Below, in pieces: positions 13,990-60,769 of a DNA stretch of 64,000 bases (its first letter is position 1; every line of letters starts with the position of its first letter). The notes beneath the pieces were generated by a model. It searched no databases and had not been told where the DNA came from. It saw only the letters and a program-made list of their open reading frames with translations. Position numbers and translations under genes: made by a program. This DNA comes from Isoetes taiwanensis (lineage: Eukaryota; Streptophyta; Lycopodiopsida; Isoetales; Isoetaceae): the NCBI GenBank assembly GCA_021234155.1, contig JAJEKV010000073.1:2950001-3014000 (forward strand), read 5' to 3'.

Positions 13990-14004
13990 TGCTGGGTCTA
14001 TTCC

Positions 14005-19762: not shown

Positions 19763-20957
19763 ATGGCGATTACCTCGGTCCGTTTGAGAACGATTTGGTA
19801 CTGCTTCAATATATTTCTTGGGAGCTTCATTACAATCCGACCGCCACTCAGAGGTCCTCACCGGGTGATCAAAGGCAGGAGAAATGTTATTTCATGCCAT
19901 TGGAAGGCTATTGTTGTTGGGTTCGAGGTGAGAGGGGAAGTATATATCAAGGTCAGACACCTATACACACCGACAGCCATGAGAAAAGAAAAGATAAGAT
20001 CTCGACGTAATTTCCCTGAGCTTCATGCTAATTGTGAGTTTCATTATGTCCGTGCTAATCCGTCATTCGTTATATTTTGAAGAAATCAACTAATTGGGTT
20101 TCTGGTATCTCGTGGCTCAGTATTTCGATGTCTTTGGACACGGAACCATCGAGTTCTATCACAAGCATCTTCCGTGCTTTCTATTATGATATTGGATCCT
20201 TGCTTTTTGAAGGTCAAACAGAAGTGCAGCTGCGGGAAAGGGGGATTTGGTTCTTAAAATATGAGTATTATCCTCGGAAAGGCAAAATTGTGGACTTACC
20301 ATTGCCCCCATTATCACAGCTTAGTTCCTGCCCAATGGATTCCAGTTCTCTGTTTCTTGCCAAGCTGAAATTGTCACAGGAAATTTTCAGTGCTTTGAAG
20401 GAGAAAGGTGGAGTCTGTGGACACGTGAAAGTAAATGTACCCATCGATATGTTTATTACGTTGTTTAAGAATGTCAAGAATGTCAAGAAGACTTCAAAAA
20501 TGTTTACTGTAAGTGATTGTCAGTTGTTTCTGGATGACATTTTATGTGATGAATGGTCATCCCGTCTGCATGAAGGAGTTGAGAAGGTACATTGCAGGAT
20601 AAAGAAAGAAAGCGTTCGAATCAGGTATTGTATTCGAAAAGCAAAGCGATTTACATTACCTTCAAATACAGAAGATGGAGGGAAGTAAAAGAAGGGAGCA
20701 GATGGACGTGGGTTCCAGTGGAACAAGACGATGCTGATGGTACCCATTCTGCGGTCATTGACATTGCTATCTTCAAAAGTGGTCAATTGTTTAAACCTTA
20801 AAAGTCGAAGAAGCATGGTCTTTATTTGATGTAAGAATTACTTTGGAATCAGAATGTGACTTAAACGTCTTCCATTTTTTGGTGGATGGTGTCAAGGTAG
20901 GAAAACGTAGGGAAGAGTTGTATACAACAAAGCTCTGTATGCCTCATGTTGTACTTT
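19763..20957 (+). pseudogene. Gene Z: unknown protein, frame-broken, first gene of the array
   Basis: Coding-like sequence shifts frame several times. One frame starts after a TTTCAG acceptor and reads DGDYLGPFENDLVLLQYIS. A second (20077-20688) encodes about 200 residues including LPLPPLSQLSSCPMDSSSLF. A third (to about 20802) reads YITFKYRRWREVKEG and WTWVPVEQDDADG. A fourth ends VVLSLSENS at 20957. No family was recognised. It precedes gene A on the same strand, and its 3' end is followed by palindrome cluster P0, like the other genes of the unit, so it probably belongs to the same element. Introns, real lesions or consensus errors could each explain the frame changes. Confidence 0.5.
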
Positions 20958-21052
20958 CTTTAAGTGAAAACAGTTAAACAAATAAATAACAATGGTGTTA
21001 CTGGGTTCAAATCCCAGTGTTGTTTGCCAATAACTTATATCCTTTTGCAAAG

Positions 21053-21306
21053 TCAGCACCGTGGCCACCGTGCAAAACATGTGGAGTTCGTGTAGTCGTG
21101 TTGTGTAGTTTCGCGCCGTGGCCACGGTGTAGTATGTTTTGTAGTTCACTTAATTTTGGCCTTCTTTTCGGCAAAATATCGCACCGTGGCCACGGTGCGA
21201 ATAACGTATTGTTGTCTTTGGCGTTTATATTTGTTTCGCACCGTGGCCACGGTGCGACATATTCCTCATCAGGACACTTAAGACATTTTAGTTTCGCGCC
21301 GTGAGC
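21053..21306. repeat. Palindrome cluster P0 (between Z and A)
   Basis: Four copies of the inverted repeat family occur at about 21055-21073, 21111-21131, 21180-21199 and 21237-21256. The last two contain the perfect 20-mer CGCACCGTGGCCACGGTGCG. A half site TCGCGCCGTGAGC ends the cluster. It lies just after the end of gene Z and about 70 bp before the start of A. Confidence 0.9.
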
Positions 21307-21372
21307 TCGCAGGCACTTACAATTAGGCGATCAGGTTTTTTATTGCACTAAAGGAGGCGCTACAATTCCGCA

Positions 21373-22879
21373 ATGTCAAACGACAGATCAGAGAAAGCTT
21401 GGGAACAGTTCCAGGCATGGTATGACCAGATCGTCAGGAAGGAAGCAGAGCATCAGTTGTCACACCCAGATGAGTTCGTTCAACCTCCTGAAAACCCGGT
21501 AGACGCCACTATAGTCTACAATAACTTCTGCCTAACGGTAGATATAATCTCTGAGGCTAACAAACACATTGATGTGTATGGTCAGTACATTCAGAGCTTC
21601 ATGGCCGTGGCAGAAACTGAAGCGCGTCCTTCTCCCTCGACTGGGAAGATTGTATTGAGTCTAAAGTCCTTTCTGAAGCTTTTTCCCAAAGGTGACCATG
21701 ATAAGGTTCGAAGGTCGTTCAAGAGACTGCCAGCCGACTTATGTGAGAAGGATGGGAAGGATAATTTATATCCAATTGACATCATGTTTGCTACTTACAT
21801 GATATATACGGTTCCACCAACAGATAGGGAAGAACCACAGGTGAAGGCTATTGCAGAACCTCAGTCACCTGTAGAGGAGGTATTTGATGCAGAGAAAGAG
21901 CAGGAACTGGTGGAAAAGCTCGACGAGGACGAGGATGAAGACGTAGACGAGCATGAAGAGAATCTTGATAGATGGGGTGTCACGGAAGCCTTGCCAGTTA
22001 ACATAGGAGGGAAGGACTATCTTCTTCTCCACGATACATCTTCCATTACTGGTTTGAGGGAAGATGAGGTCCTTGGACAAATTTATGCTTTCATTGTTGG
22101 TCTAGACGACTTCATTGACTTCGAGCCGGAAGTGCCTAGGGAGCTGCACGATCTCTTAACCTATGATGGAACTTCAATAGCTCCTGAGAATGCTTTTGAT
22201 AGAGTTCTGGAGATGGCAGAAATGGGCTTGAAGGAAGTCTCAGAAGTAAAGTTCAAGGCGAGTTCATCAGAAGCTAAAAAAGATAGTGAAAAACAAGTAT
22301 CAAAGAGCGAATCAAGCTCTTCCAGGTCGTCCATCAACATTTCTACCAAAGGGGTTATTGCATCTGATGAAGTGGAGGTAAGCTACCATAAGTTTGCTTA
22401 TTTTGTTAAGTGCCTAAGAACGATTGTTTATTGCGCAGAAGATTTTTGTGGACGATTTTTGCGCCAGACATGACAGAGTTACCCTTGGCAGAGATGCAAG
22501 TATCGCCCACTATATGGGCTACCTTTATAAGGGAGAGATCATTGTGTTCCATTCTAAGTACAGCCCATATGGACCAGTTGAAACTCAAGGCCCTCTCGTT
22601 GATTGGTAATCACATCCCATTATCTGCCAATTTCGACGGTAGTGGTACGTTGGGAGAGATATCGCCACGCATATTTTTGGTGGCTTTAGTATGTATTCTA
22701 GTAGAGCTGCATTGGCCTTGTCCGGCGTGGATAAGGCTACAATTCGACTGACTTGGGAAGAGAGGGAGCCCCAGATTCCTCGCCTTATGTACCTATTGGA
22801 TGCTGGTCTGCAGGAGTCCGAATTGGAAGAAGTCGAAGTGTCCGATGACTTACATGTTTCTAAGAAAATGAAGTTGTAA
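21373..22879 (+). pseudogene. Gene A: unknown acidic protein, two exons, only copy with exon 1
   Basis: Exon 1 is 21373-22377 (335 codons, ATG in AATTCCGCAATG). A 61-nt GT-AG intron of phase 0 (22378-22438) follows, then exon 2 22439-22879. The protein has an Asp/Glu-rich run at residues 172-197 (KLDEDEDEDVDEHEE), a Ser/Lys-rich segment at about 295-330, and a well conserved exon-2 domain (FCARHDRVTLGRDASIAHYM, GEIIVFHSKYSPYG). I do not recognise the family. An 8-nt deletion near 22572 and further changes near 22630 break exon 2 here. Other array copies have exon 2 intact but lack exon 1. Downstream lies P1 and, convergently, B1. Confidence 0.65.
22378..22438 (+). other. 61-nt GT-AG intron of gene A
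   Basis: GTAAGCTACC opens and TTATTGCGCAG closes a T-rich 61-base intron. Removing it joins exon 1 and exon 2 in frame at phase 0. The same intron is kept at 26043-26103, 35546-35606 and 45164-45224, always with intact splice sites. Confidence 0.75.
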
Positions 22880-22980
22880 CCATTGTCAATTAATGCAAAG
22901 ACTTGTTTTAAATCTCTATTCTTGTTATATCGAACATAAACTTCAGTTTCATTTTGATTTGTTTTACGCTTCTATTTTAC

Positions 22981-23244
22981 TTGCACCATGGCCACGGTGC
23001 GAAAACCGTGTTGTCTGTGCTTACAACTAACCAATATTCGCGACCTGGGGCCACGGTGGGGCGGTCGAAAAAAAGGACTATTCCACATTCTGTGGGAAGG
23101 TCTCTTTCGCACCGTCGCCACGGTGCAAAAATGACCATTCCACATTCTGTGGGAAGGTCTCTTTCGCACCGTCGCCACGGTGCAAAAATAGCAGTTCCAG
23201 CATTTTTGGAGTGTGCGATTTCGCACCGTGACTACACACACTGC
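22981..23244. repeat. Palindrome cluster P1, copy 1 (3' of A, 3' of B1)
   Basis: Five members are visible: 22981-23003 (centre GGCC, one arm mismatch), a damaged long-centre member at about 23037, two with centre CGCC at about 23105-23130 and 23162-23188, and a half site GCACCGTGACTAC at 23221. A 27-bp segment around CCACATTCTGTGGGAAGG separates the members twice. ORFs running through this cluster on both strands are by-products of the repeat. Confidence 0.9.
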
Positions 23245-23447
23245 GAAGAGAATGCTTATCTGAATTTAGAATCTACATGTAAGGAAAATGGCCAAGAGCT
23301 TTCCAAATTGAAAATGTGCAGTAAATAGATGGATCATATGTATCTATCTCTTATGGTTACATACTTATAACTAGCGAATGCCTGAAATATTCTAGTAACA
23401 GAATTTAGAACTCATATAAGAGGCATAGCATACATAAATGCAGAAGT

Positions 23448-23730
23448 TCATTCGCAATCGGGATCATCATGAGCAGGTAGTTGAGTGATGCGATTAATCT
23501 CATAGACGTGACGCTCTGGAACCCGATGAAGGTGGATAACAACACGATAAAACCCGTTGGAAGAATGATTTCGACCCTCTGCTACTCCTTCCAGCCAGGG
23601 ATCAAGGGGGATACCCCTCTGAGAACACCTATAAAGATCATTATATTTCATAGTGCAAGTAATGGAGTCTATATCTTCGGGACGAGGAGGCAAGGTAGAC
23701 CCCCGTAATAAGAATAAACAGCCGAGACAT
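23448..23730 (-). pseudogene. Gene B1, copy 1: small unknown acidic-tailed protein
   Basis: This encodes about 94 residues starting MSRPGYPYYRGS in the intact copy. It contains DSITCTMKYNDLYRC and HLHRVPERHVYEINRIT, and ends in an acidic AHDDPDCE. The first codons are shifted by a one-base change near 23704 in this copy. It is paralogous to B2, which lies upstream on the same strand (shared SITC.M, a central GIP/EIP motif and a V-I-HL segment). Family and function are unknown. It converges on gene A across P1. Confidence 0.6.
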
Positions 23731-23904
23731 AGCAAATGGATGCCTTCGCATTGAATGGAGCTGTACTTATATCGAACAAAATTATTGACATGCATCAGAA
23801 AGCAAAGCATTATTGGTTATATATACGAGCATAATGTACAAAATACACGATCATGAACTCTTCAAATAAGTATTGACAATATGATCCGGATGACAAGTAT
23901 TGAT

Positions 23905-24153
23905 TTAGGGGACTCTTCCGAGTCATTGTTACTGTGCACCCCGGTGATCTTTTCTATCATGTACATTTGATGCTCTCTATTCCATATTAGATGGATGATA
24001 ACATCGAAAAGGATCGGGATAATAGCGAGGATTGAGAGGGCAAAGTGGTCATCCGGTCTTCCATGGGTATTTCGCCGCTCGCGATCGCTTGAAGTTTTTC
24101 TGATTCATCTTGCAGGTAATGGAATCACGTTCAGGACCAGAATGAGACCACAT
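23905..24153 (-). pseudogene. Gene B2, copy 1: paralogue of B1, frame-broken
   Basis: This is homologous to the intact B2 at 34931-35179 (about 82 residues, MWSHSGPERDSITCKMN, ending EESP). Several one- or two-base changes around 23907, 24010-24080 and 24090 break the frame, many at CAG/CTG or CG-rich triplets. Function unknown. It would be transcribed divergently from gene C. Confidence 0.55.
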
Positions 24154-24607
24154 GGCTAGACGGAGGCCAATGTTGCTGCACTCGGCAATTTGATGTATTT
24201 TTACCCACCAAAATTATTGATGGTATATACCCACCAAAATTATTGATGGTATATACATAGAAATTATTCGATCATATACATACTTGTATGGTACTCGTAT
24301 GCTACATGAGCTACAATGATCTTGGTGAATGCGTGAGAAATGGTGTCAAACTTGATCCATGGCTGCAATCCAAAGCGTAAATATAATGTACGTATATAGC
24401 ATATATACCTGATTTCTCTTTAAATAGGCATCTATGCCTTCATTGTCTTTGCCTCTTTCCCCCTCTTGTCTGCTTCTTGTTTGCTCCTTGCCTCCCTGTC
24501 CGCCTCTTGTGGCTCCTTGCCTGCCTGTCTGCTCCTTTCTTGCATGCTCCTTGCCTCCCTGTCGGCTCCACTAGTTGTTTCTTGTCTGCTCCACTAATTT
24601 CTTGCAA
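24154..24607. promoter_or_regulatory. Divergent B2/C promoter region and C leader, copy 1
   Basis: A 26-bp unit (ACCCACCAAAATTATTGATGG and flank) is repeated twice in tandem at about 24203-24256. A TATA-like TTTAAATAGG lies at about 24420 for gene C. In intact copies the minus strand has GGTATAAATATA upstream of B2. Between the TATA and the C start lies a pyrimidine-rich leader made of repeated TTGCTCCTTG and TTGCCTCCCTG blocks, ending TTGCAAATG at the start codon. This is the only intergenic space of the unit without palindromes. Confidence 0.55.
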
Positions 24608-25146
24608 ATGGTAACTTTGCAAGAACATCCTCGCTGGGCTGAAATACGTGCACTTTTGATGAATTTTTTAGCAACTTTTGGGAGCATGGATGGCGTCACG
24701 GTCCAACCACAGAGCTTGCAAGGCAGTTGATCAACTTCATTATCGATCGCTATACTCGTCATCTCCCTCCACTGGAGGAGATCAATTCGAGTCAAGCAAG
24801 GTTCACTCTAAGTGCTTTGGGACTTCTTGAACCCCCCTCAGATTTAGAAGATAGGCTAGAACAGTTGAAGGACATGCTTTTCCATGGTTTCATGGCCTAC
24901 TCTCTGGATCAGTATGTGCCTCTGGTCATTCCTACTAGTGAGAAGAATAGGATTTATATCCTCATTGAACTTTACAACTTCCATTACAAATCTTTTGTGG
25001 ATATTGGTAAGCTCCTATTCCGTTCCCTTGACTTCAACATCCTGTGGTTACTGTCTAAATTCCCCGAGTGGGATACAATTCCTTGGGATACACGTGACCT
25101 ATGGCTACATAGCACACAGCACATAATATGTACATATCACAGGTAA
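24608..25146 (+). pseudogene. Gene C, copy 1: unknown helical protein with internal deletion
   Basis: Gene C is best preserved at 43714-44280 (188 codons). Here about 28 bases are missing near 24645 (between GGGCTGA and AATACGTGC), which shifts the frame after the first 15 or so codons. The remainder (24727-25146) is open and contains ARQLINFIIDRYTRHLPPLE, LGLLEPPSDLED and LDQYVPLVIP. The protein is rich in aromatic and leucine residues and predicted mainly helical. It is paralogous to gene D. No known domain was recognised. Confidence 0.6.
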
Positions 25147-25352
25147 AGATACTCCATTGGAATATGTGTATAAACTGGTATAAAGATTTTCATAGAAATT
25201 AAGTATATAAGCAAGTGATTTTCGTGTAATTAAGTAACATCCTTATCTTATCATGTATTATCTTGGCAATCTTACACTTTTAGTGTAATTGAATGATATC
25301 TTCTACCATTTTCCTTGTATTTTTTCATGTGATTGTTCTATTTGTGGTCATA

Positions 25353-25435
25353 TTCGGCACCGTAGCCACGGTGCGAAATCGCTTCAGTTACAAATTATTG
25401 AAGGGCCTATTTCGCACCGTGGCTACGGTGCGAAA
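25353..25435. repeat. Palindrome cluster P2, copy 1 (3' of C)
   Basis: Two members: GGCACCGTAGCCACGGTGCG at about 25354-25374 (centre AGCC) and CGCACCGTGGCTACGGTGCG at about 25411-25431 (centre GGCT). The two centres are reverse complements of each other while the arms are identical. The cluster lies about 210 bp after the C stop and about 400 bp before the D start. Confidence 0.9.
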
Positions 25436-25470
25436 TACGTAGATCCCGTTTTGTTACCACCACCGAATGG

Positions 25471-25836
25471 TATAATACTTCAGCATTATTGGTATTATTC
25501 TTCAACATTCTTGGTATTATACTTCAACAGTATTAGTATTATACTTCAACATTATTGGATTCGTAGCTATAAATTCTTTCAGCTTGCTTTCACTTCTCAC
25601 CTTTGTTCCATGTTTTCACCTTGCTTTCACTTCTTGGTCTTTGGTCTTCCTTGTTCCTTGCTACTTGATCTTGATCCTTGTTCTTCGCTACTTCATCTTG
25701 TTCCTTGCTCTTGATCTTGCTACTTGATCTTGTTCCTTGCTTCTTTGGTCCATGATCTTCCTTGTTTTTTTATCTTCTTGCTCCTTAATCTTCGTGCTCC
25801 TTGTTCTTTGCTACTTGATCTTCGTGCTCTTTGCAA
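25471..25836 (+). promoter_or_regulatory. Gene D promoter region and pyrimidine-rich leader, copy 1
   Basis: Imperfect tandem repeats of about 22 bp (TATTATACTTCAACATTATTGG) fill 25471-25560. They are followed by a TATA-like GCTATAAATTC at about 25567. A long pyrimidine-rich leader of repeated CTTGTTCCTTG and CTACTTGATCTTG units runs up to TTGCAAATG at 25832-25839. The leader resembles that of gene C, which supports common origin of C and D including their 5' regions. Confidence 0.5.
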
Positions 25837-26542
25837 ATGATTGGACCCAATCCTCCCTGGGCTACTCCAGAAGGCCTGCAAGCATGCCCCAGACATTCTG
25901 TGCGGCCTGAAACTGATGAGCTATTTGACCATTTCTTGGAGTGGAGGTTGCACCACAGTCCCACCAAGGAGCTTGCAATGGAGTTGATCAACTTCATTCT
26001 GGAGCGATTTGATTGTGGTCATGAGCCACTGATGAAGTGGAGGTAAGCTACCATAAGTTTGCTTATTTTGTTAAGTGCCTAAGAATGATTGTTTATTGCG
26101 CAGGAGATTTTTGCGGACGATTTTTGCGCCAGACATGACAGAGTTACCCTTGGCAGAGATGCAAGTATCGCCCACTGGGAGAGATCGTTGTGTTCCATTC
26201 TAAGTACAGCCCATATGGACCAGAAGAGGTCTTGAAGCTCAAGGCCCTCTCGTTGATTGGTAATCACATCCCATTATCTGCCAATTCTGATCGAGTAGTG
26301 GCTGTTAGGAGAGATATCGCCACGCATATTTTTGGTGGCTTTAGTATGTATTCTATGGCTGCCAATAGAGCTGCATTGGCCTTGTCCGGCATGGATAAGG
26401 CTACAAGTCGACTGACTTGGGAAGAGAGGGGGCCCCAGATTCCTCGCCTTATGTACCTGTTGGATGCTGGTATGCAGGAGTCCGAATTGGAAGAAGTCGA
26501 AGTATCCGATGACTTACATGTTTCTAAGAAAATGAAGTTGTA
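25837..26542 (+). pseudogene. D::A chimera, copy 1 (D 5' end joined to A 3' end)
   Basis: Codons 1-66 of gene D (MIGPNPPWATPEGLQACPRH) run to CACTGATG and then switch to the end of A exon 1 (AAGTGGAG), the A intron (26043-26103) and A exon 2 (26104-26542). The switch lies in a 6-bp microhomology CTGATG (26029-26034) shared by D and A. After splicing, D would enter exon 2 in the wrong phase, so no in-frame fusion is expected. A 20-bp deletion also removes part of exon 2 near 26177. The same junction is present at 35532 and 45150. Confidence 0.75.
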
Positions 26543-26642
26543 ACCATTGTCAATTAATGCAAAGACTTGTTTTAAATCTCTATTCTTGTTATATCGAACA
26601 TAAACTTCAGTTTCATTTTGATTTGTTTTACGCTTCTATTTT

Positions 26643-26914
26643 ACTTGCACCATGGCCACGGTGCGAAAACCGTGTTGTCTGTGCTTACAACTAACCAATA
26701 TTCGCACCGTGGCCACCGGTGGGCACGGTACGAAAAGGACTATTCCACATTCTGTGGGAAGGTCTCTTTCGCACCGTCGCCACGGTGCGAAAATGACCAT
26801 TCCACATTCTGTGGGAAGGTCTCTTTCGCACCGTCGCCACGGTGCGAAAATAGCAGTCCCAACGTTTTTGGAGTGTGCAATTTCGCACCGTGACTACACA
26901 CACTGCGAAGAGAA
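26643..26914. repeat. Palindrome cluster P1, copy 2 left part
   Basis: Members occur at about 26645-26667, 26701-26735 (long centre, itself the palindrome CCACCGGTGG), 26769-26793 and 26826-26851 (centre CGCC), with a half site at 26883. At 26914, after GAAGAGAATG, the unit stops abruptly and truncated retrotransposon sequence begins. Confidence 0.9.
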
Positions 26915-27875
26915 TGTTCATGCATTTCTCTAATGATCAAAGCAGATTCCTCTTTATTGACACACCTCAGTAATAGTCCATCCCTGTTGACTTTACATAA
27001 AACATCATTAATCATTTTAAATTGCCTGCCCTTTTCTTTAAATCTCCTTTGCTGGCTCGAGGTCAGTCCTGAAGGCATTTCCTTGAATTGTAAGAAATTC
27101 TTTATAGGTAGCTGCCAATCTTGTTGATTCTGCTCTTCATAAGGCATCCACAAAGTCAACAACTTCCACTACTTCCTCATGATCAAAGAAAATGTAAGGT
27201 AAGTAAAGACTGGGACTCTTCACCTGATGTAACTCTTTTATGGAAATATTAAAGGTTTGTAGCTTGCAAGCCCACCTTTGAATTTTTGGTTTAGAGGTAG
27301 CTTTACCAAATAACAAACCTGTTGGATTTTGCTTCATATAAACTTGAACTGGACTTTTCAATAGTAAATGACCTTGTCTGTCAATAAGGAACATGAGAGC
27401 AAAGAACACTCTTTCTCCATTCTCGTGTATTTCTCTTGGTTGAACTCCATTGTTTGCTAGCAAAAGCTATAGTGTGCTTGTCCTGCAGAATAGCTAGGCC
27501 TATGGCCTTTTTAGTAATAGTAATGTAGACCTCAAATGGCTTGTCCAAATCAGGTTTTTTAAGAAGAGTTGCTTCACAAATGGACTTTATAAGCAACTCA
27601 AAAGACTCTTGGCAATCTGATGACCATGTGACAGGAACATACTTGCTCTCAGATTTGGAAATCCTGGCTATTCTTGTTAGCTTAGAAATAGGACTTATAA
27701 TGTGAGCAAAATTAGGAATATACATCCTAAGAAAACTAGTCATGCCAATAAAACTTTTGACCTGCTTCAAATTTTTGGGGGGGCACCAGTTTTTTGAGGG
27801 CTTCAACTTTTTCTTGTGCCACTTGTATGCCATTGTTGGATACCTCATGTCCCAAAAGTTGGCCTTTGGATGCAA
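26915..27875 (-). pseudogene. Element 2 degenerate RNase H and start of integrase
   Basis: Frames at 27875-27381, 27463-27137 and 27162-26915 give the RT connection (KQVKSFIGMTSFLRMYIPN) and the usual RNase H position. There the canonical YTDAS is replaced by YITITKKAIG, so the first catalytic Asp is lost. The segment ends LLLRCVNKEESALIIREMHE, the start of the integrase zinc domain, cut at 26915. Loss of the catalytic residue in this domain fits the presence of a second, complete RNase H upstream of RT. Confidence 0.8.
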
Positions 27876-28338
27876 AGAAAATACATTTCTTTGGGTTAAG
27901 GTTGACTCCAGATTCCCTGCACAAAGAACATATTTTTGCCAGCAATTCCAAATGATTAGTAGGGTGAGATCCTAAACAAAGGTCATCCAAATAAACTCCG
28001 AATTCTTGAGGAGACACGGGCCTAAAAATAACATCCATAGCCCTCTGGAAAGTAGCAGGTGCATTCATTAGTCCAAAAAGCATTCTTTTCATTGCATAAG
28101 TTCCCCAAGGGGTAATAAAAGAGGTATTGGGTTGGTCTTCTTCCTTAATGCCAATTTGATTAAACCCTGAAAATCCATCTAGAAATGAGTATACCTCTCT
28201 CCTGCTACAAAGATATAAGATTTCTTCTAGAAAAGGCAAGGGGTAGCAGTCCTTGATGGTGGCTTTGTTGAGGTCTCGATAATCAATACAGATCCTTAAG
28301 GCACCACTTTTTTTCTCTACAGGTACAATGCAAGACAC
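27736..28338 (-). pseudogene. Element 2 reverse transcriptase
   Basis: The RT domain contains RICIDYRDLNKATIKDCYPLP, FLDGFSGFNQIG, MLFGLMNAPATFQRAMD and the catalytic YLDD. A frame change near 28330 separates it from the upstream protease and RNase H frame. It is clearly Ty3/gypsy-type and only distantly similar to element 1. Confidence 0.9.
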
Positions 28339-30200
28339 CCATTCTGGATTAATAATTTCAATAATACACCTGCATCTAGCATTTTATCCAACTCATCTTT
28401 AATCAGTCCCATCAATGAAGCATTAATTCTTCTCAGTTTTTGAAAAACAGGTTTACACCCTTCCTTAATCTTGATTTCAAATTGGCATACCTCTGCTTTA
28501 ATTCCAGTAAGCTCAGAATAATCCCAAGCAAACACATCCTTCCTTTCTTCAAAGAACATTTGTATATTCTCCCTATTTTGGTATTCAATTAGATCTCCAA
28601 CAAACAGGGTTCTAGTTTTACCATTTTTTGTAATGGTGACCTCTTCAGTATCCTTTTCTTCTGATGCATTAATGGTTAGAATAGGACAGAGAGCTTTTAC
28701 CTCACTAGCATCAAGGTCTTCCTCTGGAATAGCTCCTTTAGTTAGGTGTGCCATGAGAGTTTCCCTGCATAAGGTATCAGCTTCCACATTTTCTTCCCTT
28801 GGTATGTGAGTAATCTCCCATGAAGCAAAACTCGAAAGCACTCCCATTACTTGGTTTTTTAAGAGCTCCATGTCTGCATTTTTTGTTTGGTAATCTCCTG
28901 AAACTTGTCTACAAATTAATTGTGAGTCACCAAAAATGTGAATGTTGGCAATATCCATAGCTTTGGCTTCCTGAAGTCCTGCAATCAAAGCCTTATATTC
29001 TGCTACATTAGAGGTAATTTGGGGGAAGATCCTCCCTACTTTAGCTAAAAGTTTATGAGAGGAATCTTTCAGGATAGCAGCAGATGATGCAATATTTAGT
29101 TTTTTAGAGATACCTCCATCAAACCATAAGAATCCTGATGGCCCTTGTTTGCTGGGAGGTGCACATTCCATGATGAGAGGAATTGTTTCATATTTCCTTG
29201 GCCTTGCATTTTGTATTCTGTAAAATCCCAAAGGTTCTTCAATTAGCATTTCCTTAATAAAATTTACCTCCTCATTGGAACCATAGGAGCCATCTTGATT
29301 ATAGATTGTAGCAGTCTGAGAGCCATTGGAGATGGTACATCTCCCTTGAGACCAAATTGGTCTAGCATCCACAGTAGCTAACCACCTCCTACCTAAAAGT
29401 AAATCATAGATATCAGACTCATCCCCTATGTCTTCAAAAGCCACCACAATAAAGTTGGCATCTACAATTATGCCCTCTGTATTAACAGGCACTTTAGTTA
29501 CCACACCAATGGGAGTAATCTTAGCATTATAAAAGGATCTCAATAGTATAGAAGCTTTCTTGTCCACCTCGAAACCACATTTCTTCATAACATGATATGG
29601 CATAATATTTAGGGGAGATCCCCCATCAAGTAACACATTTGAGAAGGTATAACCTCCTAAAGTAGCTGAACATATGAATGCACCAGGCTCTTCTTCATTC
29701 TGTGCTAGAACAAGGTTAGTGGCATCAGTGAAATTCACACAAACATTTAATACCTCACCATTAGTTTCTTGAAGTACCCTTTTTCTGTAGCTAGGTGCAA
29801 TCTTTAGTAAGGTAAAAAGATCCACACTCACCTTGGAATTTTTAAGCAAAACATCAACCTCATCAAAGTCTTGATCTTTCTTACCATATTTTTGCTGAGG
29901 GGGTGGAGCTATGGTTTGAGCAGGTGATTCCACTACAGGTGGTGAAGGCCTGACAGTGGAATGCCTACTTGATTCAGCATGTACTTGAGCTTCATTCATG
30001 CTTCTAGTTTGCACCACCATAACTTCTTCAGATTTAGGAACCTCTGTAGCTTGAATAAATCTTATAGAGGTGCTTGGTTCAGCAAATCTCACAGGGGGTT
30101 TAGACTCTGGTCTCTTCTCTTTTGCCTGCTTAGCAAAATATGTAGCAAAATAACAGGGGGTTCCAGGGGGATTTGATATAGATATAATTCTTGAAACCAT
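28317..30200 (-). CDS. Element 2 protease plus archaeal-type RNase H, upstream of RT
   Basis: A 627-codon open frame. Residues of about 170-290 form the aspartic protease (LLDGGSPLNIMP, YDLLLGRRWL). Residues of about 360-500 form an RNase HI-like domain of the RVT_3 type with FDGG, NVAEYKALIAGL, FGDSQLI and ENVEADTL, giving the D-E-D-D catalytic set. The pre-RT motif FAWDYSELTGI follows at about 570. In plant Tat elements the extra RNase H usually lies after the RT-RNase H, so the order protease-RNase H-RT is noteworthy. The first 15 codons derive from the SINE-like insertion. Confidence 0.85.
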   Translation of the reverse strand: MVSRIISISNPPGTPCYFATYFAKQAKEKRPESKPPVRFAEPSTSIRFIQATEVPKSEEVMVVQTRSMNEAQVHAESSRHSTVRPSPPVVESPAQTIAPPPQQKYGKKDQDFDEVDVLLKNSKVSVDLFTLLKIAPSYRKRVLQETNGEVLNVCVNFTDATNLVLAQNEEEPGAFICSATLGGYTFSNVLLDGGSPLNIMPYHVMKKCGFEVDKKASILLRSFYNAKITPIGVVTKVPVNTEGIIVDANFIVVAFEDIGDESDIYDLLLGRRWLATVDARPIWSQGRCTISNGSQTATIYNQDGSYGSNEEVNFIKEMLIEEPLGFYRIQNARPRKYETIPLIMECAPPSKQGPSGFLWFDGGISKKLNIASSAAILKDSSHKLLAKVGRIFPQITSNVAEYKALIAGLQEAKAMDIANIHIFGDSQLICRQVSGDYQTKNADMELLKNQVMGVLSSFASWEITHIPREENVEADTLCRETLMAHLTKGAIPEEDLDASEVKALCPILTINASEEKDTEEVTITKNGKTRTLFVGDLIEYQNRENIQMFFEERKDVFAWDYSELTGIKAEVCQFEIKIKEGCKPVFQKLRRINASLMGLIKDELDKMLDAGVLLKLLIQNGCLALYL

Positions 30201-42560: not shown

Positions 42561-42625
42561 CTAACATATTTGAAACATTATAGTTGCACATCATGGTCAA
42601 TAGTTATACATTAATATGAATTTGT

Positions 42626-44575: not shown

Positions 44576-44960
44576 GATCCCGTTTTGTTACCACCACCGA
44601 ATGGTATAATACTTCAGCATTATTGGTATTATTCTTCAACATTCTTGGTATTATACTTCAACAGTATTAGTATTATACTTCAACATTATTGGATTCGTAG
44701 CTATAAATTCTTTCAGCTTGCTTTCACTTCTCACCTTTGTTCCATGTTTTCACCTTGCTTTCACTTCTTGGTCTTTGGTCTTCCTTGTTCCTTGCTACTT
44801 GATCTTGATCCTTGTTCTTCGCTACTTCATCTTGTTCCTTGCTCTTGATCTTGCTACTTGATCTTGTTCCTTGCTTCCTTAGTCCATGATCTTCCTTGTT
44901 TTTTTATCTTCTTGCTCCTTAATCTTCGTGCTCCTTGTTCTTTGCTACTTGATCTTTGTG

Positions 44961-45683
44961 CTTGGACTCAATCCTCCCTGGGCCACTCCAGAAGGCCTGC
45001 AAGCATGCCCCAGACATTCTGTGTGGCCTGAAACTGATGAGCTATTTGACCATTTCTTGGAGTGGAGGTTGCACCACAGTCCCACCAAGGAGCTTGCAAT
45101 GGAGTTGATCAACTTCATTCTGGAGCGATTTGATTGTGGTCATGAGCCACTGATGAAGTGGAGGTAAGCTACCATAAGTTTGCTTATTTTGTTAAGTGCC
45201 TAAGAACGATTGTTTATTGCGCAGGAGATTTTTGCAGACGATTTTTGCGCCAGACATGACAGAGTTACCCTTGGCAGAGATGCAAGTATCGCCCACTATA
45301 TGGGCTACCTTTATAAGGGAGAGATCGTTGTGTTCCATTCTAAGTACAGCCCATATGGACCAGAAGAGGTCTTGAAACTCAAGACCCTCTCGTTGATTGG
45401 TAATCACATCCCATTATCTGCCAATTCTGATCGAGTAGTGGTTGTTAGGAGAGATATCGCCACGCATATTTTTGGTGGCTTTAGTATGTATTCTATGGCT
45501 GCCAGTAGAGCTGCATTGGCCTTGTCCGGCGTGGATAAGGCTACAACTCGACTGACTTGGGAAGAGAGGGAGCCCCAGATTCCTCGCCTTATGTACCTGT
45601 TGGATGCTGGTCTGCAGGAGTCCAAATTGGAAGAAGTCGAAGTGTCCAATGACTTACATGTTTCTAAGAAAATGAAGTTGTAA
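44961..45683 (+). pseudogene. D::A chimera, copy 3b
   Basis: The D start codon region is deleted (GTGCTTGGACTC instead of GTGCTCTTTGCAAATGATTGGACCC). D sequence runs to the CTGATG junction (45150-45155), then the A intron (45164-45224) and an uninterrupted A exon 2 (45225-45683). Exon 2 here is the best complete copy, with 151 or so codons ending KKMKL. Out of phase with the D part. Confidence 0.75.
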
Positions 45684-45783
45684 CCATTGTCAATTAATGC
45701 AAAGACTTGTTTTAAATCTCTATTCTTGTTATATCGAACATAAACTTCAGTTTCATTTTGATTTGTTTTACGCTTCTATTTTA

Positions 45784-46050
45784 CTTGCACCATGGCCACG
45801 GTGCGAAAACCGTGTTGTCTGTGCTTACAACTAACCAATATTCGCACCGTGGCCACTGGTGGGCACAGTGCGAAAAGGACTATTCCACATTCTGTGGGAA
45901 GGTCTCTTTCGCACCGTCGCCACGGTGCGAAAATGACCATTCCACATTCTGTGGGAAGGTCTCTTTCGCACCGTCGCCAGGGTGCGAAAATAGCAGTTCC
46001 AACGTTTTTAAAGTGTGCAATTTCGCACCGTGACTACACACACTGCGAAG
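45784..46050. repeat. Palindrome cluster P1, copy 4
   Basis: Same members as the other P1 clusters. The long-centre member reads GGCCACTGGTGGGC, and one CGCC member carries CAGGGTGCG in its right arm. Confidence 0.9.
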
Positions 46051-46249
46051 AGAATGCTTATCTGAATTTAGAATCTACATGTAAGGAAAATGGCCAAGAG
46101 CTTTCCAAATTGAAAATGTGCAGTAAATAGATGGATCATATGTATCTATCTCTTATGGTTACATACTTATAACTAGCGAATGTCTGAAATATTCTAGTAA
46201 CAGAATTTAGAACTCATATAAGAGGCATAGCATACATAAATGCAGAAGT

Positions 46250-46532
46250 TCATTCGCAATCGGGATCATCATGAGCAGGTAGTTGAGTGATGCGATTAAT
46301 CTCATAGACGTGACGCTCTGGAACCCGGTGAAGGTGGATAACAACATGATAAAACCCGTTGGAAGAATGATTTCGCCTCTGCTACTCCTTCCAGCCAGGG
46401 ATCAAGGGGGATACCCCTCTGAGAACATCTATAAAGATCATTATATTTCATAGTGCAAGTAATGGAGTCTATATCTTTGGGACGATGAGGCAAGGTAGAC
46501 CCCCTGTAATAAGGATAACCAGGCCGAGACAT
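46250..46532 (-). pseudogene. Gene B1, copy 4, 2-nt deletion
   Basis: Homologous to 34475-34759, with two bases missing at about 46373 (TTCGCCTCTG instead of TTCGACCCTCTG), shifting the frame between the N- and C-terminal halves. Otherwise close to the intact copy. Confidence 0.6.
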
Positions 46533-46703
46533 AGCAAATGGATGCCTTCTGCATTGAATGGAGCTGTACTTATATCGAACAAAATTATTGACATGCACTG
46601 TAGCAGCATTATTGGTTATATATACGAGCATAATGTACAAAATACACGATCATGAACTCTTCAAATAAGTATTGACAATATGATCCAGATGACAAGTATT
46701 GAT

Positions 46704-46951
46704 TTAGGGGGACTCTTCTGAGTCATTGTCACCAGGCACCCCAGTGATCTTTTCTATCATGTACATTTGATGCTCTCTATTCCATATTAGATGGATGATA
46801 ACATCGAAGGGATCAGGATAATAGCGAGGATTGAGAGCGGCAGTGGTCATCCAGTCTTCCATGGGTATTTCTCGCTCGCGACACTGCTTGAAGTTTTCTG
46901 ATTCATCTTGCAGGTAATGGAATCACGTTCAGGACCAGAATGAGACCACAT
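46704..46951 (-). pseudogene. Gene B2, copy 4, 1-nt lesion
   Basis: Homologous to 34931-35179. One base is missing near 46895 (GTTTTCTGATTC instead of GTTTTCGTGATTC), which shifts the frame early. Start ATG and acidic end are conserved. Confidence 0.55.
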
Positions 46952-47436
46952 GGCTAGACGGAGGCCAATGTTGCTGCACTCGGCAATTTGATGTATATTT
47001 ATACCCACCAAAATTATTGATGGTATATACCCACCAAAATTATTGATGGTATATACATAGAAATTATTGGATCATATATATACTTGTATGGTACTCGTAT
47101 GCTACATGAGCTACAATGATCTTGGTGAATGCGTGAGAAATGGTGTCAAACTTGATCCATGGCTGCAATCCAAAGCGTAAACATAATGTACGTATATAGC
47201 ATATATACCTGATTTCTCTTTAAATAGGCATCTATGCCTTCATTGTCTTTGCCTCTTTCCCCCTCTTGTCTGCTTCTTGTTTGCTCCTTGCCTCCCTGTC
47301 CGCCTCTTGTGGCTCCTTGCCTGCCTGTCCGCCTCTTGTGGCTCCTTGCCTGCCTGTCTGCTCCTTTCTTGCATGCTCCTTGCCTCCCTGTCTGCTCCAC
47401 TAGTTGTTTCTTGTCTGCTCCACTAATTTCTTGCAA
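46952..47436. promoter_or_regulatory. Divergent B2/C promoter region and C leader, copy 4
   Basis: The doubled 26-bp repeat (about 47003-47057), the TTTAAATAGG box (about 47220) and the pyrimidine-rich leader are all present. The leader carries one extra GCCTCTTGTGGCTCCTTGCC repeat compared with the other copies, showing that its length varies. Confidence 0.55.
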
Positions 47437-47976
47437 ATGGTAACTTTGCAAGAACATCCTCGCTGGGCTGATCTGGAATACCTGCAAGCATGCGGCAGAA
47501 ATACGTGCACTTTTGATGAATTTTTTAGCAACTTTTGGGAGCATCGATGGCGTCACGGTCCAACCACAGAGCTTGCAAGGCAGCTGATCAACTTCATTAT
47601 CGATCGCTATACTCGTCATCTCCCTCCACTGGAGGAGATCAATTCGAGTCAAGCAAGGTTCACTCTAAGTGCTTTGGGACTTCTTGAACCCCCCTCAGAT
47701 TTAGAAGATAGGCTAGAACAGTTGAAGGACATGCTTTTCCATGGTTTCATGGCCTACTCTCTGGATCAGTATGTGCCTCTGGTCATTCCTACTAGTGAGA
47801 AGAATAGGATTTATATCCTCATTGAACTTTACAACTTCCATTACAAATCTTATGTGGATATTGGTAAGCTCCTATTCCGTTCCCTTGACTTCAACATCCT
47901 GTGGTTACTGTCTAAATTCCCCGAGTGGGATACAATTCCTTGGGATACCTATGGCTACATAGTACACAGCACATAA
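47437..47976 (+). pseudogene. Gene C, copy 4, C-terminal 7-nt deletion
   Basis: Identical in layout to the intact gene C for about 172 codons. It loses seven bases at about 47946 (GGGATACCTATGG instead of GGGATACACGTGACCTATGG), giving a shifted, shorter tail. Function unknown. Confidence 0.6.
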
Positions 47977-48182
47977 TACGTACATATCACAGGTAAAGAT
48001 ACTCCATTGGAATATGTGTATAAACTGGTATAAAGATTTTCATAGAAATTAAGTATATAAGCAAGTGATTTTCGTGTAATTAAGTAACATCCTTATCTTA
48101 TCATGTATTATCTTGGCAATCTTACGATATCTTCTACCATTTTCCTTGTATTTTTTCATGTGATTGTTCTATTTGTGGTCAT

Positions 48183-48266
48183 ATTCGGCACCGTAGCCAC
48201 GGTGCGAAATCGCTTCAGTTACAAATTATTGAAGGGCCTATTTCGCACCGTGGCTACGGTGTGAAA
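48183..48266. repeat. Palindrome cluster P2, copy 4
   Basis: Two members as in the other P2 clusters, with centres AGCC and GGCT. The second has a single arm change (GGTGTGAAA). Confidence 0.88.
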
Positions 48267-48664
48267 TACGTAGATCCCGTTTTGTTACCACCACCGAATG
48301 GTATAATACTTCAGCATTATTGGTATTATTCTTCAACATTCTTGGTATTATACTTCAACAGTATTAGTATTATACTTCAACATTATTGGATTCGTAGCTA
48401 TAAATTCTTTCAGCTTGCTTTCACTTCTCACCTTTGTTCCATGTTTTCACCTTGCTTTCACTTCTTGGTCTTTGGTCTTCCTTGTTCCTTGCTACTTGAT
48501 CTTGATCCTTGTTCTTCGCTACTTCATCTTGTTCCTTGCTCTTGATCTTGCTACTTGATCTTGTTCCTTGCTTCCTTGGTCCATGATCCTTGTTTTTTTA
48601 TCTTCTTGCTCCTTAATCTTCGTGCTCCTTGTTCTTTGCTACTTGATCTTCGTGCTCTTTGCAA

Positions 48665-49248
48665 ATGATTGGACCCAATCCTCCCTGGGCCACTCCAGAA
48701 GGCCTGCAAGCATGCCCCAGACATTCTGTGCGGCCTGAAACTGATGAGCTATTTGACCATTTCTTGGAGTGGAGGTTGCACTACAGTCCCACCAAGAGCT
48801 TGCAATGGAGTTGATCAACTTCATTCTGGAGCAATTTGATTGTGGTCATGAGCCACTGATGGAAATCAATCCATCTGAATGTTATAGGAGGCTTGCAATG
48901 AGGGGAATTCTTGAACCCCCTCCTTATCTGGACGAGATGCTACAGCAGTTGAGGCCTCTTCTTCGTGCTGTTTATTTAGCACACTCTCTGGATCAATACA
49001 TATCAGAGTTCATTCATGAAATTTGTAAGGGACAGATGTATGGCCTTATTAGGGCGTACTACAACGAGTACAACAACTTTGTGGAGTTGGGTCCGCTCTT
49101 CTTCCGTGAGTATCATCATGTGGAATTACTTTTTCTAATGACTAGGTATCCCATATGGTGGGAAGAATCAGGCTGGGATACGCGTGAGCTCTGGTTTCCT
49201 AACCCAGCTGCGTGGGTTACCACTCGCAAGGGAAGGGGAAGGGGTTAG
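48665..49248 (+). pseudogene. Gene D, copy 4: full-length unknown protein with shared -1 lesion
   Basis: As copy 3, with a cleaner N-terminus (PPWATPEGLQACPRHSVRPE). The same missing G in CACCAAGAGCTTGC shifts the frame around codon 45, after which 159 codons are open to the basic end RKGRGRG. Sharing the lesion shows that the two full D copies arose from one damaged ancestor by duplication. Confidence 0.6.
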
Positions 49249-49419
49249 AAACCTAGAGGAAGGTTACTTGGACATACTGCCGTTACTTGCTATCTATCAT
49301 ACATAATTCATATGATACCGTGTTAATATATTCTCTAAATGTTCTCTAATATGTTTATATATTCTCTAATATGTTAATATGTTCCCTTTGATCTTGTGAT
49401 TCACCTTCTATGGAATGAT

Positions 49420-50945
49420 TTAATTTCGCACCGTGGCCACGGTGCGAAATTGTCTACCCTCACACAGTAACTTACAGGAATTTCGCACCGTGGCCACGGT
49501 GCGAAAATACCTGCCCTCACAAAGTAATTTACACCCATTTCGCACCGTGGCAACGGTGCATTGTAAATATACATAGAGAATAGAGACAATCAAAATACTT
49601 AGCAAGCAAACAAAATATACAACAAAAATCGTTTCATTAATATAAAACACTTTACATGCCTCGGAAGTAATCATTATTGTCACTCTCTTGGAATGCACAG
49701 CACATTTCACACAGTCTTCGAAGAACCTGATCATGTGATTCTCAGCGGCCTTGTGCAGAGCATCAAGGGCATCTGCAGTGAATCGAGTCACCTCTTCTGG
49801 CATTGGAAAACTTCTACCAGCATTCCGGTACCTTCTACTATTCTCTCCTGAACCACCTCCTTACATATTCTAGCCATTGTGAGCTTCGGAAACACCCACT
49901 CCACGTGGTTCTGGAAGTGCCGGATTTCCCGAATCCATCTATACTTTGGCTTAAACGGCTGGCCCTTCTTATTCAAATTTTAGGAGGGCCTTTTACAGAG
50001 AACCTGTTTCTTTCTGCGGTTGCTTAGGCTTAGTAGACTTCCTCTTACTTCTCTTTGGATTAAGCGACCTCTAAAGGTCGCTCAACAACGGGAACCACTA
50101 TCAGATCACGGTACTACGGTTTTGTGTACAACCGCCACAGTGCTGCAACTGCCTCTTGTAGAACGATATTTTTTGCGATTTGAGTACATCCGCGGGGACG
50201 GATAGGGACACCCCGGTACATAACATTCGGGGTTGAAATACATTACGAAAAGGAACGCAAAGGCGTTACGGGCGGGCACATCCTCATTACGAGCAAAGAG
50301 CGGGAACATTACGGACATGCACATCGATGGTCATCCTCATGGGGCTTAGCATTCTCATTGTCGGCTCCAAGCAAGTCCGCCCTTGGTTTATCTCCACCAA
50401 TCCAACCGACACTCTACGAGGAAGTCCGGGTGATGTAATCTATCTCATTAGCCAGTAGAGACAATGTTTATATTGTTGGCGACAAAGAAGCCATCAACCT
50501 GGGCCACACGACGAAGGAATGGAGTGCCTCAAGCAAGTTGTCAGCTCCCATCGAAGGAACAGGCAACTGCGTGTCTGGTGCAACTACCACATCGACGTTA
50601 ACGACGATGCAATCATCAGGCACAGGAACTCCATGACAGACAGCTGCCTGCACAAAGGTTCCTTCTCCGACTAAATGGCGGAAGAGAGCAGGTAAACATG
50701 CCTTGGCCGGAAGGTATGTCTCTAAAAATCTCCCTCGCCTCATTGGCAACATTCTGAACTCTGGCGCCCGGACCATGTTTTTTCGGCTCTAAGACCGAGC
50801 TGATTCGGTTGTTAGAAGCACTGACATAGTTAGTGGGGCTGCTCTCGCTGTCTTCCCCATGATGTGTGCGCCCAGACGGCGCCTTCTCTTCTGTTCTTTG
50901 GTTGCTGGGATTGTTAGATCCGACATTACCGCTATTCTGTGTCAT
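49420..50945 (-). pseudogene. Histone H3-like gene, copy 4, disrupted
   Basis: Same gene as at 40673-42250. The H3-fold C-terminal half is readable (FTADALDALHKAAENHMIRF, CAVHSKRVTIM). A deletion near 49845 removes about 18 bases in the loop, and the middle (about 49975-50420) and N-terminal part (50690-50810) are full of changes concentrated at CAG/CTG triplets. Either a decayed copy or a poorly polished one. Confidence 0.65.
49421..49562. repeat. Palindrome cluster P3, copy 4
   Basis: Three members at about 49426-49450, 49481-49506 and 49539-49560. The first two hold the perfect 20-mer CGCACCGTGGCCACGGTGCG, the third has centre GGCA. Confidence 0.92.
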
Positions 50946-51065
50946 TGTCTCTGAACTGTAATGCAACAAATGAGTGGACAAGATTGATAAATATGCAATG
51001 TAATGACTTAGAACAAATATCAAAAGCAGACAACATCGATAACAAAGATAATTATATAAAGAGTA

Positions 51066-51252
51066 CCGTTGCTACCGTGCGAACACGGCAAAAGATAGCC
51101 ACGGAAACCAAATGTTTTCGCACCGTGGCCACGGTGCGAATAGCAGTTAATCTATAACTAATTCCCAACTTCATTAAGACGTGGCCACGGTGCGAATACT
51201 TGTCATTCATCAATTGAATACCAACTAAGTTCGCACCGTGCCCACGCTGCCA
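51066..51252. repeat. Palindrome cluster P4, copy 4
   Basis: Same four members as copy 3. The second perfect one here has lost its left arm (ATTAAGACGTGGCCACGGTGCG). Confidence 0.85.
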
Positions 51253-51297
51253 ACCTAACATATTTGAAACATTATAGTTGCACATCATGGTCAATAG

Positions 51298-53731
51298 TTA
51301 TACATTAATATGAATTTGTTCATACAATTGAAACCCCAGAAGTATATCTTCTACCCTGTCTGATCCTTGTGGATCGCCACTTTGCGCCTTTAACTTGTGC
51401 TTTGCACTAGAGTCGTACCACCATATCTTTTTTTTTTCCTGCTCAACTTTTCTCCTCAATATTCTAGCCAACGTCGTGTCTTGTTTAGCTTTATCTTTTT
51501 TCTCTAGCTTGCAGATAATCCTCCTATAGAACCATTGGCACATCTGTTGCAATGAGTTACCATACGAACCTCGATGTTGTATGAACCTGAAAAAAGCATT
51601 CTTGGCTTGCTTATGTGACTTCTCCATTCCCTGCGTATTCCATATTCCCAAGCTCCCGTACTCTTTGGTAAACCACAAGCCATGGGCGTGAAGTATATGA
51701 ATGTAATATGTGACATTGCATTCTCCCCATGCTTGTATAAAAGACTTCGTGAATTCAGTTACTGCTACTTTGAATTCATCTAACTTTCCACCCACCATTT
51801 TCTTCTCTGCCATTAAAGTTACCAGACTGCTCAGATTCTGCCACGCTTTAATTTTCTTTAGTTTTGCCCTCCCACGTGAAGTACGGTCATCTTCTGCTAC
51901 CAGCAAGTCCTTATACCCCTCCCACTTTCCAGTTGGCAATGATCCATTCTTACGTACAAGGCAGAAATATTTTCGCTTTCACCCCACCCATGGATGGTTT
52001 ACAAGGAACCTTGCCTCCCTTCTTAGGATCTTGCAAGATTTTATAGTCACCACCATGAAGACCAAGATCAGAAAGCATGTTCTCAACATCTTTCATACAC
52101 TTTTCTCTGGCTGATTGTGGAGACTTATTCCAAGCAAAAAGAATGCTCATGTACACCATCTTATCCACTATTCTTAGAAAGGCATGGAGAGTGCAAATAT
52201 GTACTCTCTTCACAGGAATTGCAAGTACGTGGATCAAAGTTTTGTCCTCCTTCTCACGCGTTGGTTCAGCATCCTGGTCACATTCGAGAGTACTCATTCC
52301 CTTCCCCTTATCATCTACCCTAGCATACAAACAGTAAGGACATGCGTGGGTTTCATGTTATACATGCACTTGATGGTCTTTAGATCAGCAGCCAAATGCC
52401 ATTCAACCTCGTAATCTCCGTAGCCAGGAACCTGAAGCTTCTCTCCGACTCCATGAGCAGCAATAATAGTAGGAATAGGTGTCTGCTGAAAGACCCACTG
52501 AAGAACACCATGATTTTCTTCCGGTACTTGAAATATCCCTATCCATCAAATATGGTCCTCTGATTGAACAGAGAACTTCCCTTCCTCATTATCAGAATTT
52601 GACAACGCCCTGTTCATTAATATCAAAGAAACCCTCTCATACTTTTCACCTTTGAGCAGTTCCATCTCATCCAACTTTATAGCAATTTGGAGTTTCCCTG
52701 CACATTCTTCCACTTTCATATCATAGAAGTTTAACTAACGTGAAGAAGCATTTTAGAGATCCATCCAACAATTATTCTTCTCATTAAGAACAAATAGATC
52801 ATTTAGGAGCCACCCTTCTTCTTACTTTTCCCGGTGATTAGTGATCCCAAGTGCACGGATGTGGTGATCTAGTACATCTCTCCCAAATGTTAGGTACTTA
52901 CGCATTTCCTCTTTGTTCCGCTTTGCTCGACATAAGCGAAGTCTTGGCAATTATGGTCTTCGTAATACCACGTTGCTTGATACCATCCCCGCAAACATCT
53001 AAAAGAGCAATGTAAGCTTGTCGACTGATACCCACATTGTCACATATAATTCTTGCATGCTATCAGCACTTTGACTCTTTCCCAATTCAGTAAGCACCTG
53101 TTCAACAACAGCTTTTCTTAAATGGTTAGCTCCAGGAAGCTTCAACATATCTATAACATCATCTTTAGTTACAAGCTTTTTCAACAAACTAGGGCATACA
53201 AGGTTTTCTCTTCTTCTTTTCAGCCATAGTAGGATCCACCATATTTTTAATAGCGTGGATTCTTCTTCTAGAGCCCCCACCACTAGGGGCAAGTATATTT
53301 AGGGCCTTCAGTTCTTTTTTCCTCTCCCTCATGCCCAGTGGTGTCATTTTCAATCTTTTTAACTTCCTCTCCAGTTTGTCATTGTCCTCAGAGCATCTCT
53401 TCAATCCTTGTTTAAGTGACTCCACCTCCATAAGCAACCTTTGATTGGAAGCTTGCAGTTCTTCTGTATTCTTAGACCTGTTGGTTAAGAAATAGTTACA
53501 CTGTTGGAGGTAATTACAGTGTGCTACCATATTGCAATGCAGTCTACACAATTGATTGTACATTGTTCTCAAATGCACATCAGAATTACTTGAAATATTA
53601 TTGCAATAGCCAAGCAGACCTTGATTACCCTTACAGGCAAAATGAATAAGCCCGATCATGCGAATGAAATTCAGGATGTCTTTCGGTGATCGGATCGATG
53701 GGATCTGATTCCCCCCACGCCTAGAGATCAA
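51298..53731 (-). pseudogene. Gene F, copy 4: transposase-like gene, most complete copy
   Basis: Reading 5' to 3' on minus: a coiled-coil N-terminal region (53731-53189, LQASNQRLLMEVESLKQGLK), a helical segment (53292-52999, LVTKDDVIDMLKLPGANHL), a broken middle with HGVGEKLQVPGYGDYEVEW and AADLKTIKCMY followed by a Cys pair (about 52350-52450), then CTLHAFLRIVDKM (52330-51950) and YIHILHAHGLWF with TQGMEKSHKQ (51939-51298). The D.K and QG.E motifs and LHA.LRI order suggest a DDE/RNase H-type transposase or recombinase, perhaps KDZ-like. Several stops and shifts separate the frames. Possible short introns were not resolved. Confidence 0.5.
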
Positions 53732-60768: not shown

Positions 60769-60769
60769 A

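Follow-up and report, generated by a model that had tools for sequence, protein, structure and literature searches.

A candidate multigene DNA transposon with palindrome clusters and a histone H3-like gene in Isoetes taiwanensis

A stretch of 64 kb of the Isoetes taiwanensis genome (contig JAJEKV010000073.1, positions 2,950,001 to 3,014,000; referred to as the window, in which all coordinates of the element are given) contains the genes E, A, C, D, B1, B2, H3-like, and F/Z, several of them in more than one copy and interspersed with clusters of a 24-bp palindrome. The locus raises the question of what kind of element this gene set represents and what the palindromes served for. As judged from the sequence, it could be a degenerate DNA transposon with several genes, the products of which bound the palindromes and held them free of methylation in a VANC-like manner, a reading that we favour and rate as an even prospect. 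In such a mechanism, element-encoded proteins would bind the palindrome clusters (putative binding), the bound palindromes would stay unmethylated, so that CpGs would be kept there, and the palindromes with their bound proteins would once have protected the element from silencing in the fashion of VANC.

Arrangement of the gene set

An earlier note on this DNA had described partial copies of one gene set in a fixed order and orientation and had proposed that they form a tandem array of one mobile or virus-like element. The repetition is real. The window contains, however, a single set, the middle of which was duplicated internally. The left end (E and the 5′ part of A, 19.76–22.36 kb) and the right end (the 5′ part of F and Z, 52.24–53.76 kb) are unique. 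The repeated segments lie within 22.36–52.24 kb in uniform orientation and share approximately 92–99% identity in a self-comparison of the window. Segment 1 comprises the 3′ part of A; segment 2 the end of A, palindromes, C, and D; segment 3 B1, a palindrome, and the start of B2; and segment 4 the rest of B2, palindromes, the H3-like gene, further palindromes, and the end of F. In the left part, the unique E/A 5′ region (19.76–22.36 kb) is followed by segments 1-2-3 (22364–26034) and by segment 1 with part of segment 2 (26029–26916). A stretch with a degenerate retroelement polymerase comes next, in which open reading frames (ORFs) at 27736–30200 match RVT_1 and RVT_3. The middle consists of a part of segment 2 (34137–35369), joined to the end of segment 3 plus segment 1 (35371–35866), and an insertion of approximately 920 bp. 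The right part comprises segments 2-3-4 (36786–43538), 3 (43536–45155), and 1-2-3-4 (45150–52235), followed by the unique F 5′ part and Z. The copies and joints are:

26029–26916, plus strand: partial copy with the A 3′ part and palindromes, from the self-comparison
26029–26034: B2/A joint with 6-bp microhomology, recurring at 35532 and 45150
34137–35369, minus strand: partial copy with open C (34478–34876) and D (34934–35299) frames
35371–36786: partial copy with the end of the B1/B2 segment and A 3′, interrupted by the approximately 920-bp insertion at 35867–36786
36786–43538: copy with A 3′, palindromes, C, D, B1, B2, H3-like, and F 3′, 94.6% identical to 45481–52235
43536–45155, plus strand: extra B1/B2 segment with open B1 (43681–44277)
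45150–52235: last copy with the A 3′ exon (open at 45204–45680), palindromes, C, D, B1, B2, a broken H3-like gene, and F

The joint between segments 3 and 1, which leads from approximately amino acid 36 of B2 to approximately amino acid 330 of A, displays 6 bp of microhomology between the parental sequences and is identical at three places; the joint between segments 4 and 3 displays 3 bp. Because the ends are single, the repeats are confined to the middle, and the joints carry microhomology, the repeated middle is the result of partial tandem duplications through two microhomology joints. Such a joint pattern is made by short-homology repair or replication slippage and not by head-to-tail insertion of a mobile unit. 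A tandem array of complete units was therefore rejected, since the A 5′ part and F 5′/Z each occur once. An assembly artefact is unlikely, because divergence between the copies amounts to a few per cent and an insertion in one of them is absent from the others. The ends of this insertion (35867–36786) are inverted, though imperfectly, and a TTA is duplicated; judging by eye from its ends, we take it to be PIF/Harbinger-like.

Palindrome clusters and CpG retention

The palindrome GCACCGTnGCnACGGTGC, usually extended to TTCGCACCGTGGCCACGGTGCGAA, was found at 36 sites with at most two mismatches, all of them between 21.0 and 51.3 kb, and at none in 100 shuffles. With up to four mismatches, 47 matches were obtained against a shuffle mean of 9.6 (n = 20), one of them (12370) outside the element. 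The sites form five distinct clusters, of which the remaining clusters are copies:

21056–21255: cluster E/A, four sites with spacings of 57, 68, and 57
22983–23183: cluster A/C, better preserved at 37092–37290 with spacings of 57, 67, and 57 and a partial second site
25357–25431: cluster B1/B2, two sites 57 apart
40700–40833: cluster B2/H3, three sites
42368–42556: cluster H3/F, four sites with spacings of 57, 57, and 57; spacers within the cluster 31–55% identical

Neighbouring sites up to 130 bp apart were separated by exactly 57 bp in 16 of 23 cases, and otherwise by 59, 68, 113, 124 (three times), and 126 bp (hand count). Some of these other distances are accounted for by degraded sites, as partial sites were found 57 bp past 26647, 37092, and 45787. 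Spacers from different clusters share 14–41% identity (nine 39-base spacers; three of other lengths were excluded) and those within E/A 45%. What stands out is that the 57-bp period is common to clusters with unrelated spacers.

Clusters follow A, B1, B2, C, and F at approximately 50–270 bp past the stop codon, none is present in the divergent gap between D and B1, and the palindrome arms could pair around a 4-base loop. They might accordingly be RNA hairpins for transcript 3′ ends and not DNA-binding sites. We consider this doubtful, because the clusters E/A and H3/F are also located directly upstream of A and the H3-like gene, respectively, and because at three changed sites (21056, 42368, and 42539) pairing is lost and no compensating change restores it. 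Moreover, the H3-like frame itself passes through a cluster, and neither the similar spacing across five clusters nor a retention specific to CpG would be expected of hairpins.

CpG decay is a mark of methylation. For its analysis, the copies were aligned per segment (two to five copies each); the partial copy at 35371–35866 was excluded, and the single-copy cluster E/A was not covered. CpG cells were those of alignment columns in which at least one copy has a CpG. Palindromes were sites with at most two mismatches in at least one copy, a definition that favours retention, and a control with CpG-dense stretches was made to meet this bias. Losses affected 7 of 128 CpG cells in palindromes and 156 of 641 elsewhere. 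Counted by sites, 38 of 44 CpGs were invariant in palindromes versus 121 of 214 outside (Fisher p 1e-4), 20 of 48 in CpG-dense stretches outside (p 1e-5), and 11 of 25 outside but within 60 bp of palindromes (p 3e-4), the p values being overstated, because CpG cells share ancestry and are not independent. Pairwise CpG divergence was lower inside the palindromes in all four pairs (0.037, 0.100, 0.100, and 0.075 inside; 0.164, 0.206, 0.157, and 0.107 outside), with p 0.0014 for the first pair, the sole pair tested. The low CpG decay suggests hypomethylation of the palindromes without showing it. Over longer distances, the observed/expected ratio of CpG was 0.63–0.76 in four segments of the element, as in younger or less methylated DNA, whereas the distal flanks had 0.49 and 0.39.

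Genes of the set and neighbouring sequence

The genes of the set, each represented by its most informative copies, are:

19763–20688, plus strand: E, degenerate gene at the unique left end, ORF at 20077–20688
21373–22876, plus strand: A, sole copy with the 5′ part; putative 61-bp intron at 22378–22438, exon 2 broken
23451–23813, minus strand: C, copy 1
23907–24271, minus strand: D, copy 1, broken, paralogue of C
24575–25143, plus strand: B1, copy 1, broken
40029–40517, plus strand: B2, open; second open copy at 48757–49245
40919–42250, minus strand: H3-like, single open frame; PF00125 with E 4.1e-14 at residues 304–435 of 444
42607–43538, minus strand: F 3′ part, truncated copy, joined to B1-side sequence at 43536 with 3-bp microhomology
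51301–53760, minus strand: stretch spanning the right end including F 5′ and Z

The H3-like protein has a true histone H3 fold. Its best match in the PDB was histone H3.1 (E 3.8e-10). Approximately 300 residues without a significant match are followed by a stretch resembling an H3 tail and by the histone fold, which carries a loop insertion of approximately 21 residues between two of its parts. The core of the fold is kept with the H3-type sequence CAVHSKRVTIM, and the C-terminal end is altered: after VTIM, the usual H3 end is replaced by ITSKACKAF and further residues. An identity as CENH3 was considered and set aside, since the fold retains the canonical VTIM core. The second copy (49645–50945) is broken by many indels. 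In both copies, the frame is open past the histone fold through the palindrome cluster (40676–40918 in the first copy, to 49423 in the second).

F and Z follow each other as parts of a single minus-strand gene that is broken in several places. Its N-terminal coiled coil, indicated by weak matches to coiled-coil families of Pfam, precedes CPYC, CTLH, HILHAH, and GMEK. For transposases of the CACTA/Mirage/Chapaev/Transib (CMCT) group, the order CxxC...CxxH...HxxxxH...E is given by Kojima (PMC12730594), and F shows C(2)C and H(3–4)H between the second D and the last E with these four motifs in order. In the catalytic triad, the E of GMEK and the D of LAAD are plausible, and the first D is uncertain, the gene being broken. 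F/Z reads as one broken gene for a putative CMCT-like transposase.

The putative spliceosomal intron of A (61 bp, GTAAGC...GCGCAG) is present in all four copies, and joining of the exons restores a single frame; exon 2, broken in the left copy, is open at 45204–45680. The proteins C and D are 32% identical. A third C-like fragment on the plus strand is located between D and B1 (24294–24377, also at 38352 and 47094). B1 and B2 share 41% protein identity; their nucleotide difference is smallest at codon position 2 (0.37 versus 0.49 and 0.48) and the NG86 estimates are 0.63 for dN and 0.89 for dS, which indicates an old pair that is weakly constrained by this measure. E is possibly B-like: one weak 19-residue tblastx match (37%) connects 19786–19842 with 40009–40065 at the start of B2, its printed E value being shared with linked palindrome matches. 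Structure prediction was poor both for A (exon 1 frame; mean pLDDT 39.7 and no alignment) and for B (46.0, five-row alignment), and a PDB search with the B alignment gave nothing significant (best E 0.11). The content described in the earlier note, namely a transposase-like protein (here motif-based), a histone fold, two pairs of paralogues, and inverted repeats, holds up.

The same genes might also be a locally duplicated host cluster of fast-evolving genes (H3 variant, B, C/D, and A) with an old transposase pseudogene beside it by chance. This is possible but rather unlikely. The palindromes (at most two mismatches) adjoin F as well as A, B1, B2, C, and the H3-like gene and occur nowhere else in the 64 kb, F keeps its place in the gene order and takes part in the duplications, and the CpG content of the four element segments is unlike that of the distal flanks.

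A fragment of an endogenised large DNA virus, which the earlier note had put forward along with a KDZ-like or Maverick-scale transposon, would have compact genes on both strands and palindromes at gene ends. The gene density, the paralogue families, the mostly single-frame genes, and the dispersed palindrome clusters agree with it, and giant viruses have 3′ hairpins at gene ends. In baculoviruses, the hr enhancer/origins hold repeated palindromes of 28–30 bp bound by IE1 (PMC2834656). We nevertheless hold a virus to be quite improbable, and a Maverick is likewise disfavoured, because a Pfam scan of 15 distinct element stretches (some short ORFs lay outside it) yielded none of the genes for polymerase B, a packaging ATPase, a capsid, or an integrase and because A has a putative GT-AG intron. 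A search of 10 stretches against PHROG gave only four weak matches (best E 0.0072). Scans of viral contigs, as well as a contig scan of genomes with the C-terminal part of F, revealed no relative, which says little about plants, since the scanned collections were viral and prokaryotic. A KDZ transposon is not supported: Pfam includes a KDZ model, and no KDZ family appeared in a scan with matches listed up to E 10. RNA gene families at the gathering score and tRNA genes were not found.

A nearly complete gypsy-type long terminal repeat (LTR) retrotransposon is located at 9906–19106, with LTRs approximately 95% identical (about 9906–11315 and 17704–19106) and with gag, reverse transcriptase, and integrase matches; its flanks, TAGTG and ACTTT, show no 5-base target duplication by eye. 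A direct 567-bp tandem duplication at 3664–4794 (99.8% identical) matches in parts the gypsy-type element near 17247–17709. On the other side, a direct repeat of approximately 450 bp (57374–57823 and 58427–58869, 95.6% identical) lies near an ORF of 137 amino acids without a Pfam match. Related stretches on opposite strands near the two ends of the window (2708–3663 and 60610–61510) are, as a guess, similar to long interspersed nuclear elements, and a weak reverse transcriptase match was found at 61969–62505.

Weighing the evidence and comparison with known systems

Besides the shared ancestry of the CpG cells, several results speak against a degenerate transposon with protected palindromes. 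No terminal inverted repeat or target duplication was found around the element, and a second insertion is not known. Between 19107–19763 and 53735–56500, CA..TG terminal repeats or a 2–5 bp target duplication were absent except for one A-rich chance match, which is not decisive, the true ends being undefined; a 14-bp inverted repeat (19684–19697/54731–54744, E 0.047) was taken as chance. For F/Z, the motif pattern was partly picked after inspection of the sequence and is attained by approximately 0.6% of shuffles (1114 of 200000 shuffles of F). One F copy (42626–43099) matched RAG1 with E 0.054, which is under the cut-off and behind two unrelated chance families (0.011 and 0.041). No match was obtained with the other copy, no transposase family up to E 10 with the read-through, no significant Pfam match with F/Z, and no PDB match with F, so that the transposase assignment is based on motifs. 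Neighbouring 57-bp units are approximately 95% alike in A/C and 88% in B2/H3, which suggests that the period may be partly due to tandem duplication of a 57-bp unit; VANC targets likewise evolve by tandem duplication (PMC5735166). Non-CpG cells, with 3 of 519 changed in palindromes and 199 of 18869 outside, are too few to discriminate. The total pairwise divergence was higher inside the palindromes in three of four pairs (0.027, 0.050, 0.033, and 0.025 inside; 0.031, 0.034, 0.022, and 0.014 outside). The CpG ratio was 0.47 at the F/Z end, near that of the flanks, and 0.67 in the neighbouring gypsy-type element. Finally, the same CpG pattern could arise from local gene conversion or from selection acting on the sites.

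A bolder version, which we think unlikely, would be a plant DNA transposon that supplies a histone H3 variant, to which a targeting region is fused, together with self-encoded dimeric DNA-binding proteins, and that builds its own unmethylated chromatin on 57-bp palindrome arrays as a self-contained anti-silencing system. If true, what is needed for escape from DNA methylation would travel with the transposon, the address as spaced palindromes and the chromatin parts as a divergent histone H3, and the VANC idea would be widened beyond a DNA-binding anti-silencing factor to a nucleosome variant that the element itself encodes. Studies of cooperative binding and of protection from methylation in plants would, in addition, gain a sequence-defined 57-bp array. 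Even if mobility fails, protection makes a direct prediction that can be measured, namely the retention of CpGs at the palindromes.

A divergent histone H3-like gene on a DNA transposon has a precedent in Pyrenophora tritici-repentis, in which a hAT transposon of 5.6 kb carries an H3-like gene (H3L proteins with tail insertions) and an extra ORF (PMC3538342). This published fungal case lowers the novelty of a transposon-borne histone H3. An ORF of unknown function accompanies the H3-like gene there, too. The Pyrenophora element differs in its hAT transposase, terminal inverted repeats, and many copies; in the window, approximately eight genes, a CMCT-like signature, and palindrome arrays are present, no ends were found, and the Pfam scans of the element stretches gave no hAT match.

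In Arabidopsis VANDAL21, dense motifs, often in tandem repeats, occupy non-coding parts of a multigene DNA transposon and are linked to methylation loss by VANC (PMC5735166). The placement of a repeated motif in non-coding parts of a multigene element is shared with the Isoetes locus. The VANC21 motif, however, has nine bases (YAGTATTAY) and belongs to DUF1985/DUF287 proteins, in contrast to the 24-bp palindrome mostly at 57-bp spacing, and neither a MuDR transposase nor a DUF1985/DUF287 match was detected by Pfam in the scanned element stretches. With the CMCT transposases (including ESTA, Plavaka, Transib, and RAG1; PMC12730594), F shares C(2)C and H(3–4)H between the catalytic D and E, whereas a significant profile match and 5′-CA..TG-3′ ends were not found and the cargo differs. 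The baculovirus hrs resemble the locus in their several interspersed clusters of repeated palindromes; they are viral enhancers/origins (PMC2834656), and no viral gene was found here. In agreement with the earlier note, no described element with this combination of genes and palindromes was recognised among the listed results of the literature searches.

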